DNA of 46,835 bases. It comes from Nitrospirota bacterium. GTDB lineage: Bacteria > Nitrospirota > JACRHL01. A model generated the notes under the pieces. It made no database searches. It saw only the letters and a list, made by a program, of their open reading frames with translations, and was not told the origin of the DNA. Of the stretch, positions 5,958 to 23,672 are shown piece by piece. How positions within the stretch are numbered: the stretch's first letter is position 1; each line of letters opens with the position of its first letter. The translations under genes were made by a program, and so were the position numbers. Location of the stretch: the NCBI GenBank assembly GCA_029881725.1, contig JAOUMB010000018.1:1-46835 (forward strand), read 5' to 3'.

Positions 5958-6494
5958 ATGCGGCGGACAGACCCCATGCTGCGCCGGGAAGGCGGCTTCA
6001 CCCTGATCGAGATCACCCTGGTGCTGTTCATTCTGGGATTGATGGCGGCGGTGGTGTTTCCACGCATTCCCAACGTGGGTGGCGGCAATTTCAAGAAAGA
6101 GGCGCGCACCCTGTCCGGTTTTATCGGCGGACTGTATGCGGAAGCCACCTTTTCGCGTCGCATGCACCGGCTGGTGATCGATCTGGACAGCCAGCGCTAC
6201 TGGGGTGAGTTTGCCCCCGATGTGGAAAAACGCACGGATTACCAGCCGCTGGAGAGCTCGTTTTTGAAACCGGTGCGGCTGCCGTCCGGGGTGCGGGTGG
6301 TGGATGTGCAGGAACCTTCGCGCGGCAAGCGCCACGACGGCAGGGCCTTCGCCCACTTCCATCCGCTGGGGCGGGCGGAACTGGTGCTGATTCACCTGGA
6401 GGACAGCGATGGCGAGGAGCTGACCCTGCAGGTCAATCCGTTTTCCGGCGGCGTGAAGGTGCTGGAAGGCTATGTGGAACTGCAACTGGGATGA
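5958..6494 (+). CDS. gspH: Type II secretion minor pseudopilin H
   Basis: This is a minor pseudopilin expected to help prime or shape the pseudopilus tip. A prepilin-type site (REGG|FTLIEITLVL) is followed by a hydrophobic helix and a soluble domain that diverges from textbook GspH. The 178-residue call uses ATG 5958; ATG 5976 would give a shorter leader (MLRREGG) and is equally possible, since neither has a strong ribosome site. The stop overlaps the gspI start. Assignment as H rather than another minor pseudopilin rests on order (G-H-I-J) and size. Confidence 0.85.
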   Translation: MRRTDPMLRREGGFTLIEITLVLFILGLMAAVVFPRIPNVGGGNFKKEARTLSGFIGGLYAEATFSRRMHRLVIDLDSQRYWGEFAPDVEKRTDYQPLESSFLKPVRLPSGVRVVDVQEPSRGKRHDGRAFAHFHPLGRAELVLIHLEDSDGEELTLQVNPFSGGVKVLEGYVELQLG

Positions 6495-6874
6495 GGCACG
6501 GCCCGTGGCACGAGGACGGCTTCACCCTGATCGAGGTGATGGTATCGCTGGCGATTATCGCCACGGCGATGGTGTCGCTGCTGGGGCTGCGCAATTACGA
6601 CCTGCGCATGCAGACCCTGTCGCGGGAAACCACCCAGGCCACGCTGCTGGCCCAGGCGCGGCTGTATGAGGCGCAGCACGATGAAAACCGCATGCTGGGA
6701 ATTTTCGAGGGCGACTTTGGCGAGCAGGTGCCGTTCTGGTACCGCCAGTCCGCCTCGCCGCTGCCGGTGCCGGGCATGGACGACGTGTGGGTGTTGCAGG
6801 TGTCGGTATTCTGGAGCGAGGATAACCGGGTGGACCTGACCGGCTTTGCGGAAGCCCCGGAGGATAGCCCATGA
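6491..6874 (+). CDS. gspI: Type II secretion minor pseudopilin I
   Basis: This is a minor pseudopilin; in known systems GspI starts the tip complex with J and K. The 127-residue protein has a 10-residue leader ending EDG, then FTLIEVMVSLAIIA and a short soluble domain, which is the normal GspI size. Its start overlaps gspH by four bases and its end overlaps gspJ by four (ATGA at both), so H-I-J should be translated in fixed ratio. The GLRNYDLRMQTLSRE stretch after the hydrophobic helix fits GspI. Confidence 0.88.
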   Translation: MRHGPWHEDGFTLIEVMVSLAIIATAMVSLLGLRNYDLRMQTLSRETTQATLLAQARLYEAQHDENRMLGIFEGDFGEQVPFWYRQSASPLPVPGMDDVWVLQVSVFWSEDNRVDLTGFAEAPEDSP

Positions 6875-17433: not shown

Positions 17434-19206
17434 CTAGAACGGCCAGACCATGGGGATCAACGGCACCGCCACCAGAAAGATCACCGCCTCCAGGGGCAGG
17501 CCCAGCCGCCAGTAATCGCCAAAGCGATAGCCGCCGGGTCCCATCACCAGGGTGTTGTTCTGGTGCCCCACCGGGGTCAGGAAGGCGCAGGAGGCCCCCA
17601 CCGCCACCGCCATCAGGAACGGGTCCGCGTTCACCCCCAGCCGGGCGGCCAGATCCGCCGCCACCGGGGCCATCACCACCGCCGTGGCGGCGTTGTTCAT
17701 CACGTCGGACAGAAACATGGCCAGCAGCAAGACCAGCCCCAGCAGCAGATGCGGGCCGCCGCCTCCGGCCACATCCGCCAGCCATCCGGCCAGCACCCCG
17801 GCGGCGCCGGTCCCGTGCAGGGCCTCGCCCACCGGGATCATGGCCGCCAGCAGCACCACCACCGGAAAATCCACCGCGTCGTACATCTCCCGATACGGCA
17901 GCACGTTGGTGACGATCATCACCACCGCCGCTCCGGCCAGCGCCAGGGCGGCGGGCACGGTACCGGTGGCGATCAGGGCCATGGCGGTGGCAAACACCAC
18001 CAGCGGCAGCAGCAGGCGGCGCGGGTTCATATGCAGCTTGCGGCTGGCCAGGGGCAATGCGCCCAGGGAGGCCGCCACCTCCGGCAGGCCGTCCGCGTCG
18101 CCCTGCATCAGCAGCACATCGCCCGCATGCAGCACCACGTCCCGCAGCCGGGTGCGTACCGGGACCCCCTCTCGCCCCACCGCCAGCAGGTTGACTCCGT
18201 AGCGGGAGCGCAGCTTCAACTGTCCGGGCGTAGTGCCCACCGCCGGGGAACCGGGCTTGAGCACCACCTCCGCCAGCGCCATGTCGGCACGCCGCAGGCG
18301 TTCCTGCAACACCTCCTCGCCCATCACCTTCAGACCACGGGTTTCGGTCAACTGGTGCATCGGATCGGAACCGCCCATCACCAGCAACACGTCCCCCGGC
18401 TGCATCAGCTCCAGCCGCATCAGGCCCCACATCTGGCGCTCTCCCCGGAACAGCCCCAGCACCTGGATGTCGAGCCCGCTGTCGGCCACGAACGACCCCA
18501 CGCTGTGCCCCACCAGCGGGGAGTCCTCCCCCACCTCCAGTTCCGCCACGTAGCGCTCCACGTCGAACAGGTCTTCCGGCTCCGGGCGTCCGGTGCGGGC
18601 GGCGGGAATCAGCCGCCAGCCGATCAGGGCCACGAACAGCACCCCGCACGCCGCCACCGTCAGCCCCACCGGCGAGAAGTCGAACAGGCCGAACGGGGTG
18701 CCGGTAAGGTCCGCCCGGTAATTGGCGACGATGATATTCGGCGGGGTGCCGATGAGGGTGGCCATGCCCCCCAGCATGGTGCAGAAGGAGAGCGGCATCA
18801 GTACCCGCGAGGGTGGCACCTTCAGCTTGCGACAGGCGCCCAGGGCCACCGGCATGAGCAGGGTGAGCGCCCCCACGTTGTTGATGAAGGCCGACACCGA
18901 GGCGCTTCCGGACAGCAGCGCCAGGCGCAGCCGCAGCGGTGTGGCGGCAATCCGCAGCAGCAGCCGGGTGAACAGGTTGGCGGCGCCGGAACGGGTGAGG
19001 CTGCGGCTGATCAACAGCACCGCCGCCACCGTCACCACCGCCGGGTGGGAGAAGCCGGAGAAGGCGGCGCCCGCATCCACCACCCCCAGGGCCACGGCGG
19101 CCAGCAGGGCCAGCAGGGCCACCAGATCGAAGCGCCACCGGCCCCAGACGAACATCCCCATGGCAGCGGCCAGTACGGCGCACACGGCAATCTGTCTCGG
19201 GTCCAT
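17434..19206 (-). CDS. SLC13/DASS-type anion transporter with two TrkA-C domains
   Basis: This is a 590-residue inner-membrane permease of the divalent anion/sodium symporter family, likely for sulfate, dicarboxylate or a similar anion. Two membrane halves carry the mirrored signatures SAFINNVGALTLLMPV / LIGTPPNIIV and SDVMNNAATAVVMAPV / PVGHQNNTLVMGPGG. Between them are two RCK_C (TrkA-C) regulatory domains (about residues 215-290 and 305-385). This layout is common in bacterial SLC13 relatives. The start at 19206 (MDPRQIAV) has GGAG upstream; a more distal ATG at 19263 would add a Pro-rich tail without a ribosome site. Substrate cannot be read from the sequence. Confidence 0.93.
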   Translation of the reverse strand: MDPRQIAVCAVLAAAMGMFVWGRWRFDLVALLALLAAVALGVVDAGAAFSGFSHPAVVTVAAVLLISRSLTRSGAANLFTRLLLRIAATPLRLRLALLSGSASVSAFINNVGALTLLMPVALGACRKLKVPPSRVLMPLSFCTMLGGMATLIGTPPNIIVANYRADLTGTPFGLFDFSPVGLTVAACGVLFVALIGWRLIPAARTGRPEPEDLFDVERYVAELEVGEDSPLVGHSVGSFVADSGLDIQVLGLFRGERQMWGLMRLELMQPGDVLLVMGGSDPMHQLTETRGLKVMGEEVLQERLRRADMALAEVVLKPGSPAVGTTPGQLKLRSRYGVNLLAVGREGVPVRTRLRDVVLHAGDVLLMQGDADGLPEVAASLGALPLASRKLHMNPRRLLLPLVVFATAMALIATGTVPAALALAGAAVVMIVTNVLPYREMYDAVDFPVVVLLAAMIPVGEALHGTGAAGVLAGWLADVAGGGGPHLLLGLVLLLAMFLSDVMNNAATAVVMAPVAADLAARLGVNADPFLMAVAVGASCAFLTPVGHQNNTLVMGPGGYRFGDYWRLGLPLEAVIFLVAVPLIPMVWPF

Positions 19207-19308
19207 GAGTGCTCCGGCTGGGGGAAACCCCCTCTTTGTATCCGGTTGCGGCGGGGATGGCAAGCCACGGCGCCTTTTCGCCCGGAGCGAGGGGTGCTAT
19301 CTTGAACT

Positions 19309-20136: not shown

Positions 20137-20487
20137 ATGGGCAGGCTGCTGGGAATCTGTTTGGCTGTGGCGTTGGGCGGGTGCGCGGCGGCACCGCAGG
20201 CGCCGTTTCTGGCCGGATATGACGGCAGCGACGGGGGGCTGCAATTCGCCGTGCAGCCGGCGGACGCAGAGGTGTTTGTGGACGCCGAGCGCATGGGCAC
20301 GGTGGCCGATTTTACCGGCGACCGGGTGCTGTGGCTGCCCCGCGGACTGCACGCGGTGGAAGTCACCAAGACCGGCTACTTCACCTTTTTCCGCCAGGTG
20401 CAGACCTCCAGCGGGCTGGTGGAGGTGTTCATCACCACCCTGCGCGAGGCCAAAGAGGTGGAAACCAACGCCGACCGGCGCCGGTAA
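20137..20487 (+). CDS. PEGA-domain lipoprotein
   Basis: This 116-residue protein has a lipoprotein signal: hydrophobic LLGICLAVALGG followed by Cys16, the likely lipidated residue. The mature part is a single PEGA-type beta domain (about residues 38-103): QFAVQPADAEVFVDAERMG, then LPRGLHAVEVTKTGYFTFFRQV. PEGA domains are surface or periplasmic beta modules of uncertain role. GGAGG precedes ATG 20137 and a good promoter is present, so the gene seems to be its own unit. Confidence 0.8.
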   Translation: MGRLLGICLAVALGGCAAAPQAPFLAGYDGSDGGLQFAVQPADAEVFVDAERMGTVADFTGDRVLWLPRGLHAVEVTKTGYFTFFRQVQTSSGLVEVFITTLREAKEVETNADRRR

Positions 20488-20526: not shown

Positions 20527-20934
20527 TCAGCCCGCGGTCACCGCGTCGGTGAGCAGCCGGGTGATCTTCTGGATCATCTGGCTGGGGTCGAACGGCTTGT
20601 ACAGCACCGCGTCCGGCTTGGCGTAGTCATGAAATAACTTTTCGCGCTCCGGATCGTGATCCAGCTTGCGCGCGGTCACCAGGCAGATTTTCATCTGCGC
20701 CGGCAGGATGCCCAGGGACTGGGCCTCGCGCAGCTTGCGGCTGACGCGGTAGCCATTCTCCTTGGGCATCATCACGTCCAGCAGGACGATGTCCGGCTGA
20801 AACGCGTGGGCCGCCCCGAGTCCCTCGTGGCCGTTGCTGGCTGTTTCCACCTGAAAACCGGAACGCTCCAGCAGGTAGCGTACCGATTCGCGCAGATCGG
20901 GCTCGTCGTCGACGATCAGCACCTTGTGTGTCAT
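20527..20934 (-). CDS. Single-domain response regulator (receiver only)
   Basis: This 135-residue receiver domain has no output domain. The phosphorylation set is complete: acidic pair D9/D10, phospho-acceptor D53 (IVLLDVMMP), T87 (LVTAR) and K113 (YKPFD). It begins at ATG 20934 after a strong AGGAGGG. It lies 86 bases downstream of the histidine kinase gene on the same strand and is presumably its partner. With no DNA-binding part it should act by protein contact or as a phosphate relay, like CheY/Spo0F-type proteins. Confidence 0.92.
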   Translation of the reverse strand: MTHKVLIVDDEPDLRESVRYLLERSGFQVETASNGHEGLGAAHAFQPDIVLLDVMMPKENGYRVSRKLREAQSLGILPAQMKICLVTARKLDHDPEREKLFHDYAKPDAVLYKPFDPSQMIQKITRLLTDAVTAG

Positions 20935-21020: not shown

Positions 21021-22892
21021 TCAGGCATCCGCATCCGGGCAGGGAGCCGCATCGCGCCGGGCGGCGCGGGCCCTTTCCAAGACGCTGGCGAAGCCCTCCC
21101 CCGCACCGGGGAGGCTCCACCCAATCCTTATCGGATTTTTATTCCGGTTACTCGACCCGCAACTTAACAGCGTTTCCGCGGCGCGCTGGGCGGCTTCGCC
21201 GCCGGGCACCAGCAGCACCCCGCCGTGGGGGCTGGTGGTGGGCGCCCACTGCCAGCCGGGGCGCGCCTGATCGCGCAGCATATCGGTGATGCGGGAAGCG
21301 GTACGGGCATCCGGTGCGGTCACCACCGCCAGACGCGGGTCGGACTGCTCGCGGGTGAGCCGTTTCAGTCCGTCGCGCAGGCCCAGCAGGCCCAGGGCGT
21401 CGGGGGTCAGGCGCGGCAGGCGCACCACAAAGCGAATTCGTTTGGCGCGCGGCTGGGCCCACACCGCGCCGCCGTGGGCGGCCACGATTTTGCGGCATAC
21501 GGCCAGTTCCAGCCCGAAGCGGCCGCTCTCCCAGCCCAGCCCCTTGTCGCCGGGGGCGAACGGGTCGAACAGGGCGGCGGCCTGTTCCGGTGATACTTCG
21601 GCGCCGCTGAAGGTAATCGACATCTCCACCCAGCCGCCCGCCGCTTCCGGCAGGTCGGGCGGAGTCATGGGCGCGGATTCGCTCCAGCGGGTCAGGTGCC
21701 GGGCCGCCAGCCGCACTACGCCGCCCTGGGGGCTGTGGCGCACGGCGCTTTCGATCAGGGTGGTCACCAGCGGCCCCAGACGGGTGCCGTCCCCGTGTAC
21801 CGAAGGCAGGCCGGTGGGCAGTTGCAGGTGCAGGCGCACCCGGCCGTGTTCCGCATCCGCCTTCACCGACAGGGCGGCCTGCCGGGCCAGTTCCGCCATG
21901 TCCAGCGGCTCGGCGGTGAGCGCCGCCTGGCGGGTGTCGAGCTTGGTGTAGTCCAGCAGGTGGTCGGCCAGGGAACCCAGGCGCAGGGCGTTGCGTTCGG
22001 CCATATCCAGAAACGTGCGCGCCGGGCCGGTCTCCTCGCCCTGCTCGATGCGCAGCAGGTGCAGGGCGTTGCGGATGGCGGTGAGCGGGGTGCGCAATTC
22101 ATGGGCGGCCAGGGCGATGAAATCGGACTTGGCGTCGTCCAACCGCGCCAGTTCCCGGTTGGCCGCCTCCACCGCGCGGGCGTGTTGGGCCAGAGTGTCG
22201 CGCTGGCGGGTGAGGGCGTCCTGATCGTTGTGGCGGCCGGTGACGTCCTCCATCACCTCCAGGCAGGTGCCTCCCGCGCCCCCGTGCAGGGCCACGCGGC
22301 TGCACAGCCACACGTGGCCCGATTCCGGGTCGGCCAGTTCGGTCATTTGCAGTGGCCCCATGGTTTCCGGGGTCAGGGTGCGCAGCAGATCGCGGCGCAC
22401 CTTGCGATGCACCGGGTTGCGATACAGGTAGTTGCCGTTGCGGTCGCGCAGGGCGGCGCCCACGGGCAGGGCCTCCAGTACCCGGCCGGGCCAGGCAGCG
22501 GCCGCCGGGGGCGGGGCCGCTTCCGGCAGCATGCCCAGCACGGTGCCGATGCGGTCGGTATTCAGTTCGTTCAGGCAGATGACGTGCTGCGCGCCCATCT
22601 GCGCGCACAGGGCGGCCACGCTGGGGCGGTTGCCGCTGTACAGGGCCGCCACCTGGTGGCCGGGGGCCTGCTCCACCTGGGTTTGCAGGTCGCCCAGTCC
22701 GGCCTGGTCGGTGACCACCACCAGCACGGTGGCATCCGGCAGCGCGGGAACCTGTCCGGGTGCCAGCGGCACCACCCGCGCGGGCAGGGCCTCCAGTGCC
22801 TCGCGCCAGGCGGGCGGAAGGCGGCCCAGGCCGGCGGTCAGAAAGGTGCGCCGGTCGGTTTCCGAAAATTCGTTGTGCGGTTCATCACCCAT
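21021..22892 (-). CDS. Soluble histidine kinase-like protein with a degenerate ATP site
   Basis: This 623-residue protein has no membrane segment. An N-terminal region (about 40-125) has an alternating beta/alpha pattern reminiscent of a worn receiver. A PAS-like part (about 135-220) precedes a coiled linker, then the HisKA helix with His264 (LAAHELRTPL). In the ATPase domain the N box reads TLIESAVRH (378-386) where both usual asparagines are replaced, and the G1 box reads FSGAE (428-432), lacking the adenine-binding Asp. The later GLGWESGRFGLELA block is partly kept. Residues 500-623 form an extra domain I do not recognise. It could be an inactive scaffold, a phosphatase or a phospho-acceptor served by another kinase. 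Confidence 0.88.
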   Translation of the reverse strand: MGDEPHNEFSETDRRTFLTAGLGRLPPAWREALEALPARVVPLAPGQVPALPDATVLVVVTDQAGLGDLQTQVEQAPGHQVAALYSGNRPSVAALCAQMGAQHVICLNELNTDRIGTVLGMLPEAAPPPAAAAWPGRVLEALPVGAALRDRNGNYLYRNPVHRKVRRDLLRTLTPETMGPLQMTELADPESGHVWLCSRVALHGGAGGTCLEVMEDVTGRHNDQDALTRQRDTLAQHARAVEAANRELARLDDAKSDFIALAAHELRTPLTAIRNALHLLRIEQGEETGPARTFLDMAERNALRLGSLADHLLDYTKLDTRQAALTAEPLDMAELARQAALSVKADAEHGRVRLHLQLPTGLPSVHGDGTRLGPLVTTLIESAVRHSPQGGVVRLAARHLTRWSESAPMTPPDLPEAAGGWVEMSITFSGAEVSPEQAAALFDPFAPGDKGLGWESGRFGLELAVCRKIVAAHGGAVWAQPRAKRIRFVVRLPRLTPDALGLLGLRDGLKRLTREQSDPRLAVVTAPDARTASRITDMLRDQARPGWQWAPTTSPHGGVLLVPGGEAAQRAAETLLSCGSSNRNKNPIRIGWSLPGAGEGFASVLERARAARRDAAPCPDADA

Positions 22893-23000: not shown

Positions 23001-23672
23001 ATGGCAGTTACGGATTGCATGGGCAGCAGAGTCAGAACCGGCACCTTGATTGAAGTGGACCCCCGGTTCGGCGTGGATCCCGACCGGTTGCGGGCCGAGG
23101 GGTGGACCGGCGTGTTCGGGCGCCCCGCGCCGCTGGAGGTGGAGGTGGGCTTCGGCAACGGCATCAGCCTGATCGAAATGGCCCGCCGCCGGCCGGAGCA
23201 CAACTTCGTGGGGGTGGAACTGTACGGGCGCGGCATCGAAAAGCTGGGCAAGCGCCTGGCCCACGAAGGCATCGGCAACGTGCGCATCGTCAAGGGCGAG
23301 GGCATGGAGGTACTGGCCGACTGTTTCCCGAGGGGCGCCATCCACACCTTCCACTGCAACTTTCCCGACCCGTGGCCCAAGGTGCGCCACCACAAGCGGC
23401 GCTTCGTGGGACCGGCCCTGGCGGTGCGTCTGTTCGACCGGGTGCGGCCCGGTGGCGACCTGTTCTTCGCCACCGATTTCGACTGCTACGCCTATCAGAT
23501 GCGTGACACCTTCGATGCCCATCCCGGATTTGTGAATCGGGCCGGCAGCGGGGAGTTCCTGTACCGGATGCCGGACCGAATCGTCACCAAGTACGAGGCC
23601 AAGTTCGCCGCCCGCGGGGCCACCATCCGCTACCTGTGGTACCGGCGCACGGAAGGCGGCGGGGGGGCGTGA
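23001..23672 (+). CDS. trmB: tRNA (guanine-N7-)-methyltransferase
   Basis: TrmB makes m7G46 in tRNA. The 223-residue protein shows the SAM-binding VEVGFGNGISLIEMA motif and the family hallmark FPDPWPKVRHHKRRF, plus LFFATDFDCYAYQM near the C-terminal third. Neither ATG 23001 nor ATG 23019 has a clear ribosome site; a 5-bp stem (22968-22984) followed by a T-rich stretch lies just upstream. It is divergent from the histidine kinase gene (108-base AT-rich gap). The stop overlaps the next gene's GTG. Confidence 0.94.
   Translation: MAVTDCMGSRVRTGTLIEVDPRFGVDPDRLRAEGWTGVFGRPAPLEVEVGFGNGISLIEMARRRPEHNFVGVELYGRGIEKLGKRLAHEGIGNVRIVKGEGMEVLADCFPRGAIHTFHCNFPDPWPKVRHHKRRFVGPALAVRLFDRVRPGGDLFFATDFDCYAYQMRDTFDAHPGFVNRAGSGEFLYRMPDRIVTKYEAKFAARGATIRYLWYRRTEGGGGA

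Follow-up and report, generated by a model that had tools for sequence, protein, structure and literature searches.

The locus analysed here raises the question of what a histidine kinase may still do when its phospho-acceptor histidine is kept and its ATP site is lost. It lies in a stretch of 46,835 nucleotides from a Nitrospirota bacterium (contig JAOUMB010000018.1, assembly GCA_029881725.1), hereafter the window, in which a gene for a pseudo-histidine kinase is followed by a gene for a stand-alone receiver. An initial annotation had proposed that the product may be a phosphatase, a scaffold or an acceptor in a relay rather than an autokinase. Our findings support the second half of that proposal well, whereas the choice among the roles is not settled by the sequence; we tentatively favour a dimeric histidine phosphotransferase that exchanges phosphate with the partner receiver. 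The features on which the argument draws are the following.

21021..22892, minus strand: pseudo-histidine kinase, a single ORF of 623 aa (Pfam HisKA and HATPase_c)
22533..22847, minus strand: receiver-like N-terminal domain, residues 16-120, without recognisable receiver active-site residues (strand and helix order in the AF2 model)
22227..22490, minus strand: PAS-like region, residues 135-222 (PAS_4 match in one orthologue; AF2)
21933..22136, minus strand: DHp (HisKA) domain, residues 253-320, with complete H box (Pfam, alignment)
22101..22103, minus strand: codon of the phospho-acceptor His264 (sequence; His in 9/9 operon kinases)
21408..21917, minus strand: degenerate HATPase_c (CA) domain, residues 326-495 (Pfam, structure alignment, orthologue table)
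21732..21761, minus strand: degenerate N box TLIESAVRHS, residues 378-387 (HK853 register and alignment)
21630..21689, minus strand: insert between N box and G1, residues 402-421 (orthologue alignment)
21594..21617, minus strand: degenerate G1 box ITFSGAEV, residues 426-433 (HK853 register and alignment)
21498..21524, minus strand: degenerate G2 box GRFGLELAV, residues 457-465 (alignment)
21057..21395, minus strand: predicted GGDEF-fold C-terminal domain, residues 500-612, without GGDEF or RxxD (Pfam, AF2, Foldseek, VIA-align, alignment)
20527..20934 (stop at 20527), minus strand: partner gene, a stand-alone receiver of 135 aa (Pfam, orthologue alignment)

The operon is flanked on the plus strand by genes for a PEGA-like small lipoprotein and a TrmB-type methyltransferase (window 20137-20487 and 23001-23672), and ORFs resembling both also occur at the orthologous loci L002, L003 and L004. 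A CitMHS-type transporter with TrkA_C domains is encoded on the minus strand at 17434-19263.

Loss of the ATP site

Pfam recognises HisKA at residues 254-320 (51.6 bits) and HATPase_c at residues 367-494 of the protein, no NCBIfam family stood above its cut-off for either the kinase or the receiver among the matches listed, and the AF2 model of the full-length pseudokinase has a mean pLDDT of 82.5 and a pTM of 0.59. The highest 19-residue hydropathy mean is 1.27, in agreement with the earlier view of a soluble protein. The H box, HELRTPL, is of the HisKA type and complete (H264, E265 and T268), as had been read from the letters alone, and the replacement of both N-box asparagines by Thr and Ser (T378 and S382) and the loss of the G1 aspartate in FSGAE (F428) likewise held on alignment. 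That list of losses proved too short, since the N-box lysine (R385), the second G1 glycine (E432, with G430 kept) and two G2 glycines (R458 and E462) are gone too. When the domain was aligned with structures of HK853, NLLNNGVKYS of its N box fell on TLIESAVRHS and VEDNGIGI on ITFSGAEV, and this register, together with the structure alignment, ruled out intact N or G1 boxes elsewhere in the HATPase domain.

The HATPase_c match scores 42.3 bits, compared with 96.6-113 in intact relatives, and ranks 37th by score among the 39 matches of its own genome. In the 30 of these 39 matches that were read, a count made without filtering, the second N-box asparagine is kept in 30/30 and the G1 aspartate in 29/30. 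The motif comparison table includes all 26 loci L005-L030, which passed a motif filter, and its own-genome rows are biased, having been pre-filtered by motif (22/30 passed). Another kinase of the same genome (L046, G000:C98:6597-6917) carries Asn in place of the G1 aspartate (VENTGEPI) together with an intact N box. With the N box and G1 lost, no self-phosphorylation is expected, and the conclusion that the window protein does not autophosphorylate from ATP is well supported by the N-box loss in 4/4 orthologues against intact boxes in all five operon relatives. The CA domain is folded in the AF2 model (pLDDT mostly >90 outside the lid) and, as described below, evolves under purifying selection, so that it may still bind some nucleotide or protein.

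Conservation within the family

Full-length orthologues were found only in three other genomes of the same Nitrospirota family, f1 (61 genomes searched; 70, 42 and 41% identity by search), and a profile of the N-terminal part matched in 4/395 Nitrospirota genomes, the four of this family. When 84,980 genomes of named species were scanned with two peptide patterns, an approach that could miss distant orthologues, 36 loci were returned, three of them full-length orthologues and all three in Nitrospirota MAGs. Across the four family members the catalytic N-box asparagine is replaced by Ser, Ser, His and His, the second G1 glycine by Glu, Glu, Met and Thr, and the G1 aspartate position reads Phe, Phe, Asp and Asp, the aspartate being retained in G001 and G002; G001 also retains a G2 glycine. 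Two stages of decay can thus be told apart: the N box is gone from 4/4, and the window protein and that of G003 lack in addition the G1 aspartate and a larger share of G2. It is probable, from the distribution of these residues, that loss of the N box was ancestral to the family and that loss of the G1 aspartate came later. The degeneration is therefore shared by orthologues, as the initial annotation had suggested checking: the N-box asparagine is present in 5/5 operon relatives (L107, L108, L109, L124 and L125) and in 0/4 family members. The same division holds for an insert ahead of G1, some 20 residues long or longer, which occurs in 4/4 family members and is absent from the five intact relatives; its residues W403, P408, P412, L414, P415 and W421 are invariant within the family.

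H264, E265, R267, T268 and P269 are invariant in all four proteins, and the DHp is the most conserved named domain of the family, with 85, 55 and 58% identity compared with 72, 40 and 34% for the CA domain. Nei-Gojobori dN/dS values against the nearest orthologue, which come from one pair only and with an approximate dS, are about 0.15 for the DHp, 0.21 for the CA domain and 0.36 overall. The family's ratio of CA to DHp identity is 0.59-0.85 and that of the intact relatives 0.62-0.84, so that this ratio alone does not show a faster decay of the CA domain. Two other explanations of the losses were rejected. An artefact or pseudogene is contradicted by the open frame in four genomes and by dN/dS values that stay under 1 for each domain examined (0.15-0.73); a recent loss confined to a single strain is contradicted by the lack of the N-box asparagine in all four genomes of the family.

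Active relatives and origin of the operon

A profile of the receiver (E<=1e-40) matched in 8/395 Nitrospirota genomes, four of f1 and four of f25. At three of the f25 loci (L107, L108 and L109) a receiver-PAS-HisKA-HATPase-tail kinase with all boxes intact immediately precedes the receiver. A profile of the full-length kinase (E<=1e-70) matched in 14/395 genomes and added G298 (f41) and G210 (f23), each with a kinase and a receiver and with intact boxes; five further matches in family f5, of which one (G032) was inspected, cover the kinase core only and were left out of the operon set. The relatives of the receiver thus stand directly behind an intact kinase whose domains follow broadly the same order in 5/6 loci, and they are 48-52% identical to the window receiver in f25 and 36-37% in f41 and f23. 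At the sixth locus (L110, in G291, the fourth genome of f25) the receiver gene at 6352-6738 is interrupted by two TAG codons in frame, and a search of 14 kb found no kinase, which looks as if the receiver were decaying after the loss of its kinase.

Like the window operon, the intact relatives in f25, f41 and f23 show the order receiver-(GAF/PAS)-HisKA-HATPase-GGDEF-like, with a stand-alone receiver encoded next; unlike it, they have all ATP boxes intact and no insert before G1. In a tree of 58 sequences, of which five, including three from the family, are unusual in letter composition, the kinase cores of all nine operon kinases form one clade (support 98/93), and G210 is tentatively placed as sister of family f1 (93/60). 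The occurrence of intact relatives of both kinase and receiver in three other families points to an active operon as the starting point. It is likely, therefore, that an active kinase-receiver operon was converted into a pseudokinase-receiver operon and that the family form is the derived one, a polarity that rests on the intact state being the general one rather than on a rooting of the nine in the tree.

The same data bear on whether the window protein might have an unusual ATP site that leaves it some weak autokinase activity, or whether its gene might be functionless and in decay. In favour, G001 keeps the G1 aspartate and a G2 glycine, and the branch of the family in the kinase-core tree is long (1.39); the loss of the catalytic asparagine in 4/4, however, speaks against residual kinase activity, and the absence of internal stops in four genomes and the overall dN/dS of 0.36 speak against decay, so that we consider both highly improbable.

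Another kinase could instead supply the phosphate within a mixed dimer, an intact subunit phosphorylating H264 of the pseudokinase subunit, which would then feed the receiver. The H box and its H+1 acid are complete in the window protein, 33 HisKA matches in the genome are possible partners, and native ChrS-HrrS heterodimers have been demonstrated (PMC9491836). However, no close intact paralogue was found in the own genome with the full-length profile at E<=1e-70 (one match), and in the ChrS heterodimer the histidine of the pseudokinase is reported not to be involved (PMC9491836), which leaves this arrangement very unlikely.

The partner receiver

The stand-alone receiver gene follows the pseudokinase gene after 86 bp and adjoins it in 4/4 genomes of the family. 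Its catalytic residues are all present (D9, D10, D53, T87 and K113), and the description of the downstream receiver as intact was right, the DD pair, Asp53, Thr87 and Lys113 being in place. It is better conserved across the family than the kinase (74, 64 and 61% identity compared with 70, 41 and 38%). The counterparts of A271 and D297 of HK853 are Asn and Arg in 9/9 operon kinases, that of V294 is Met in eight and Ile in one, and the remaining two specificity positions vary conservatively (Ala/Ser and Leu/Ile); according to the title of a structure entry, HK853 has been rewired for receiver specificity at these positions. The same or nearly the same residues at the specificity positions of the nine kinases suggest that the receiver-docking surface of the kinase is largely kept. 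Neither a second receiver nor a donor kinase was identified for this pair, the closest receiver paralogue of the genome being only 41% identical (E 8.5e-17).

The domains around the kinase core

The N-terminal 120 residues follow the order b-a-b-b-a-b-a-b-a in the AF2 model, which is that of a receiver minus one helix, and alignment with the genuine receiver domains of the relatives shows that the window protein lacks the phospho-aspartate. No Pfam family matched this domain, and hhalign against the domains of the relatives ranked the receiver first with a probability of 2.2%, which is not significant. From the predicted fold and the alignment, it looks like a dead receiver. In the PAS-like region a PAS_4 match (E 0.0019) was obtained in one of the four orthologues, and hhalign of this part against the relatives matched nothing.

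The additional C-terminal domain noted at the outset is present and, on the evidence of its AF2 model and Foldseek, has a GGDEF fold that lacks both the GGDEF and the RxxD motif. Modelled alone it has a pLDDT of 83.2; all six Foldseek matches at E<=0.001 are GGDEF domains, and the best GGDEF match in VIA-align reached Z 13.1 (121 residues, 3.1 A). Neither a receiver nor a GGDEF structure was among the full-length VIA-align matches listed, the kinase core having filled the list. At the sequence level, Pfam GGDEF_2 remained below its cut-off for the tails of the window protein (E 0.0012), L107 (0.092) and L124 (0.24), the tail of L125 alone passed the Pfam GGDEF cut-off (27.5 against 23.8 bits), and hhalign put the corresponding domain of the relatives at the top with a probability of only 0.5%. 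Read by eye in the alignment, the GGDEF motif is absent from 9/9 operon kinases and the I-site RxxD from 4/4 family members, while an RxxD-like inhibitory site occurs in G313, G298 and G210. The own genome has nine strong GGDEF matches, so that c-di-GMP is probably present in the organism. L125, L124 and L108 encode kinases with intact boxes that end in a GGDEF-like domain without GGDEF and with the RxxD-like site kept, which makes them possible candidates for c-di-GMP sensing.

Proposed role

The retention of the DHp helices, the phospho-histidine, the receiver and the partner surface points to a protein that handles the phosphate of the receiver, and the invariance of the histidine and of its H+1 acid favours a phosphotransferase. 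The ancestor would have been a soluble sensor kinase (receiver-PAS-HisKA-HATPase-GGDEF-like) in an operon with a stand-alone receiver. Its ATP domain, and apparently its N-terminal receiver too, would have lost their catalytic residues, with the phospho-acceptor helix and the partner receiver kept under selection. The partner receiver would now be charged by another kinase or by a small phosphodonor, and H264 would take the phosphoryl group from it and either pass it onward or let it be lost, the PAS, GGDEF-like and dead ATP domains gating the transfer. Several observations weaken this reading: neither a second receiver nor a donor kinase emerged from the genome, the CA domain is folded in the model and under purifying selection, the G1 aspartate persists in G001 and G002 and a G2 glycine in G001, and the conservation of T268 suits a phosphatase equally well.

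A phosphatase for the partner receiver would be a bifunctional kinase minus its kinase half, with T268 (H+4) activating the water. Threonine occupies H+4 in 9/9 operon kinases, and the phytochrome DrBphP, a HisKA protein in which the N-box asparagine has become His, as in two of the orthologues, is reported to be a phosphatase without kinase activity in which H+4 matters (PMC8292422). Conservation of the histidine would also fit, since it is described as contributing to HisKA phosphatase activity without being essential (PMC12632262). DrBphP, however, needed ATP for its phosphatase activity (PMC8292422) and the ATP site is worse in the window protein; moreover, DrBphP has lost the H+1 acid, which is of no use in phosphatase activity, whereas E265 is kept in 4/4 family members. 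A phosphatase thus seems to us rather unlikely, if a serious competitor.

The third role to be weighed is that of a phospho-specific sensor or scaffold which, like DivL of Caulobacter, would bind the phosphorylated receiver and act on another kinase without handling the phosphate. DivL heads the VIA-align matches of the DHp-CA part (Z 21.0, 224 residues, 4.4 A; rows within 1 are tied), and it is described as binding DivK~P with neither kinase nor phosphatase activity (PMC4211667). DivL has nevertheless lost the histidine (Tyr550), whereas His, H+1 and H+4 are invariant in the window family and would be needless for pure sensing; the conservation of H264 hence favours phospho-His chemistry, and a purely sensory role appears improbable. 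Returning to the phosphotransferase, the broader picture that would follow, which we hold with more doubt, is that of dead kinase, receiver and cyclase-like domains arranged around a living phospho-His and receiver, with phosphate flowing from the receiver to the 'kinase', so that an operon acting as a source elsewhere would serve as a sink or relay in family f1.

Comparison with known systems

Pseudo-histidine kinases are a recognised class (PMC12632262), and the combination of a kept histidine and a degenerate ATP domain, as in proteins of the PhyT/Spo0B/ChpT type, is found in the window protein as well. PhyT (formerly PhyP) of Sphingomonas melonis, with its histidine kept and its ATPase domain degenerate, is reported to transfer phosphate from a single-domain receiver (PMC5898713). 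It shares with the window protein the phospho-His on a kinase-like helix, the single-domain receiver as partner and, according to its authors, descent from a kinase (PMC5898713), but PhyT is membrane-anchored and has HRxxN, whereas the window protein, a soluble one, carries the HisKA box HELRTPL and ends in a GGDEF-like tail, and its receiver is encoded in the same operon. DrBphP, as described in PMC8292422, resembles it in the HisKA domain, the lost N-box asparagine and the kept H+4 side chain; the window protein differs in keeping an acidic H+1, in its lost G1 and G2 residues and in having no phytochrome domains. DivL, in turn, is a pseudokinase with the DHp-CA fold and a single-domain receiver (PMC4211667), with Tyr in place of the phospho-His that the window protein and 4/4 family members keep. 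Kinases ending in a degenerate GGDEF domain are already known from SgmT of Myxococcus (PMC3509222), described as a hybrid kinase that is active and has kept its I site intact, in contrast to the window protein, which has no A site, I site or active kinase.

No published description of the operon was found among titles and abstract openings, which is no proof of absence. What appears new is the family itself, its operon with active relatives, and the presence of dead ATP, GGDEF and (probably) receiver domains around a conserved phospho-His. We know of no comparably close set of active operon relatives for DivL, PhyT or Spo0B. Here one operon is seen both in an active form (five relatives) and in an inactive one (four members), and with these matched proteins and the related receiver the conversion of a kinase into a relay or phosphatase is open to direct test. 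If the backward flow proves true, the same operon would supply phosphate in some Nitrospirota and drain or relay it in family f1.
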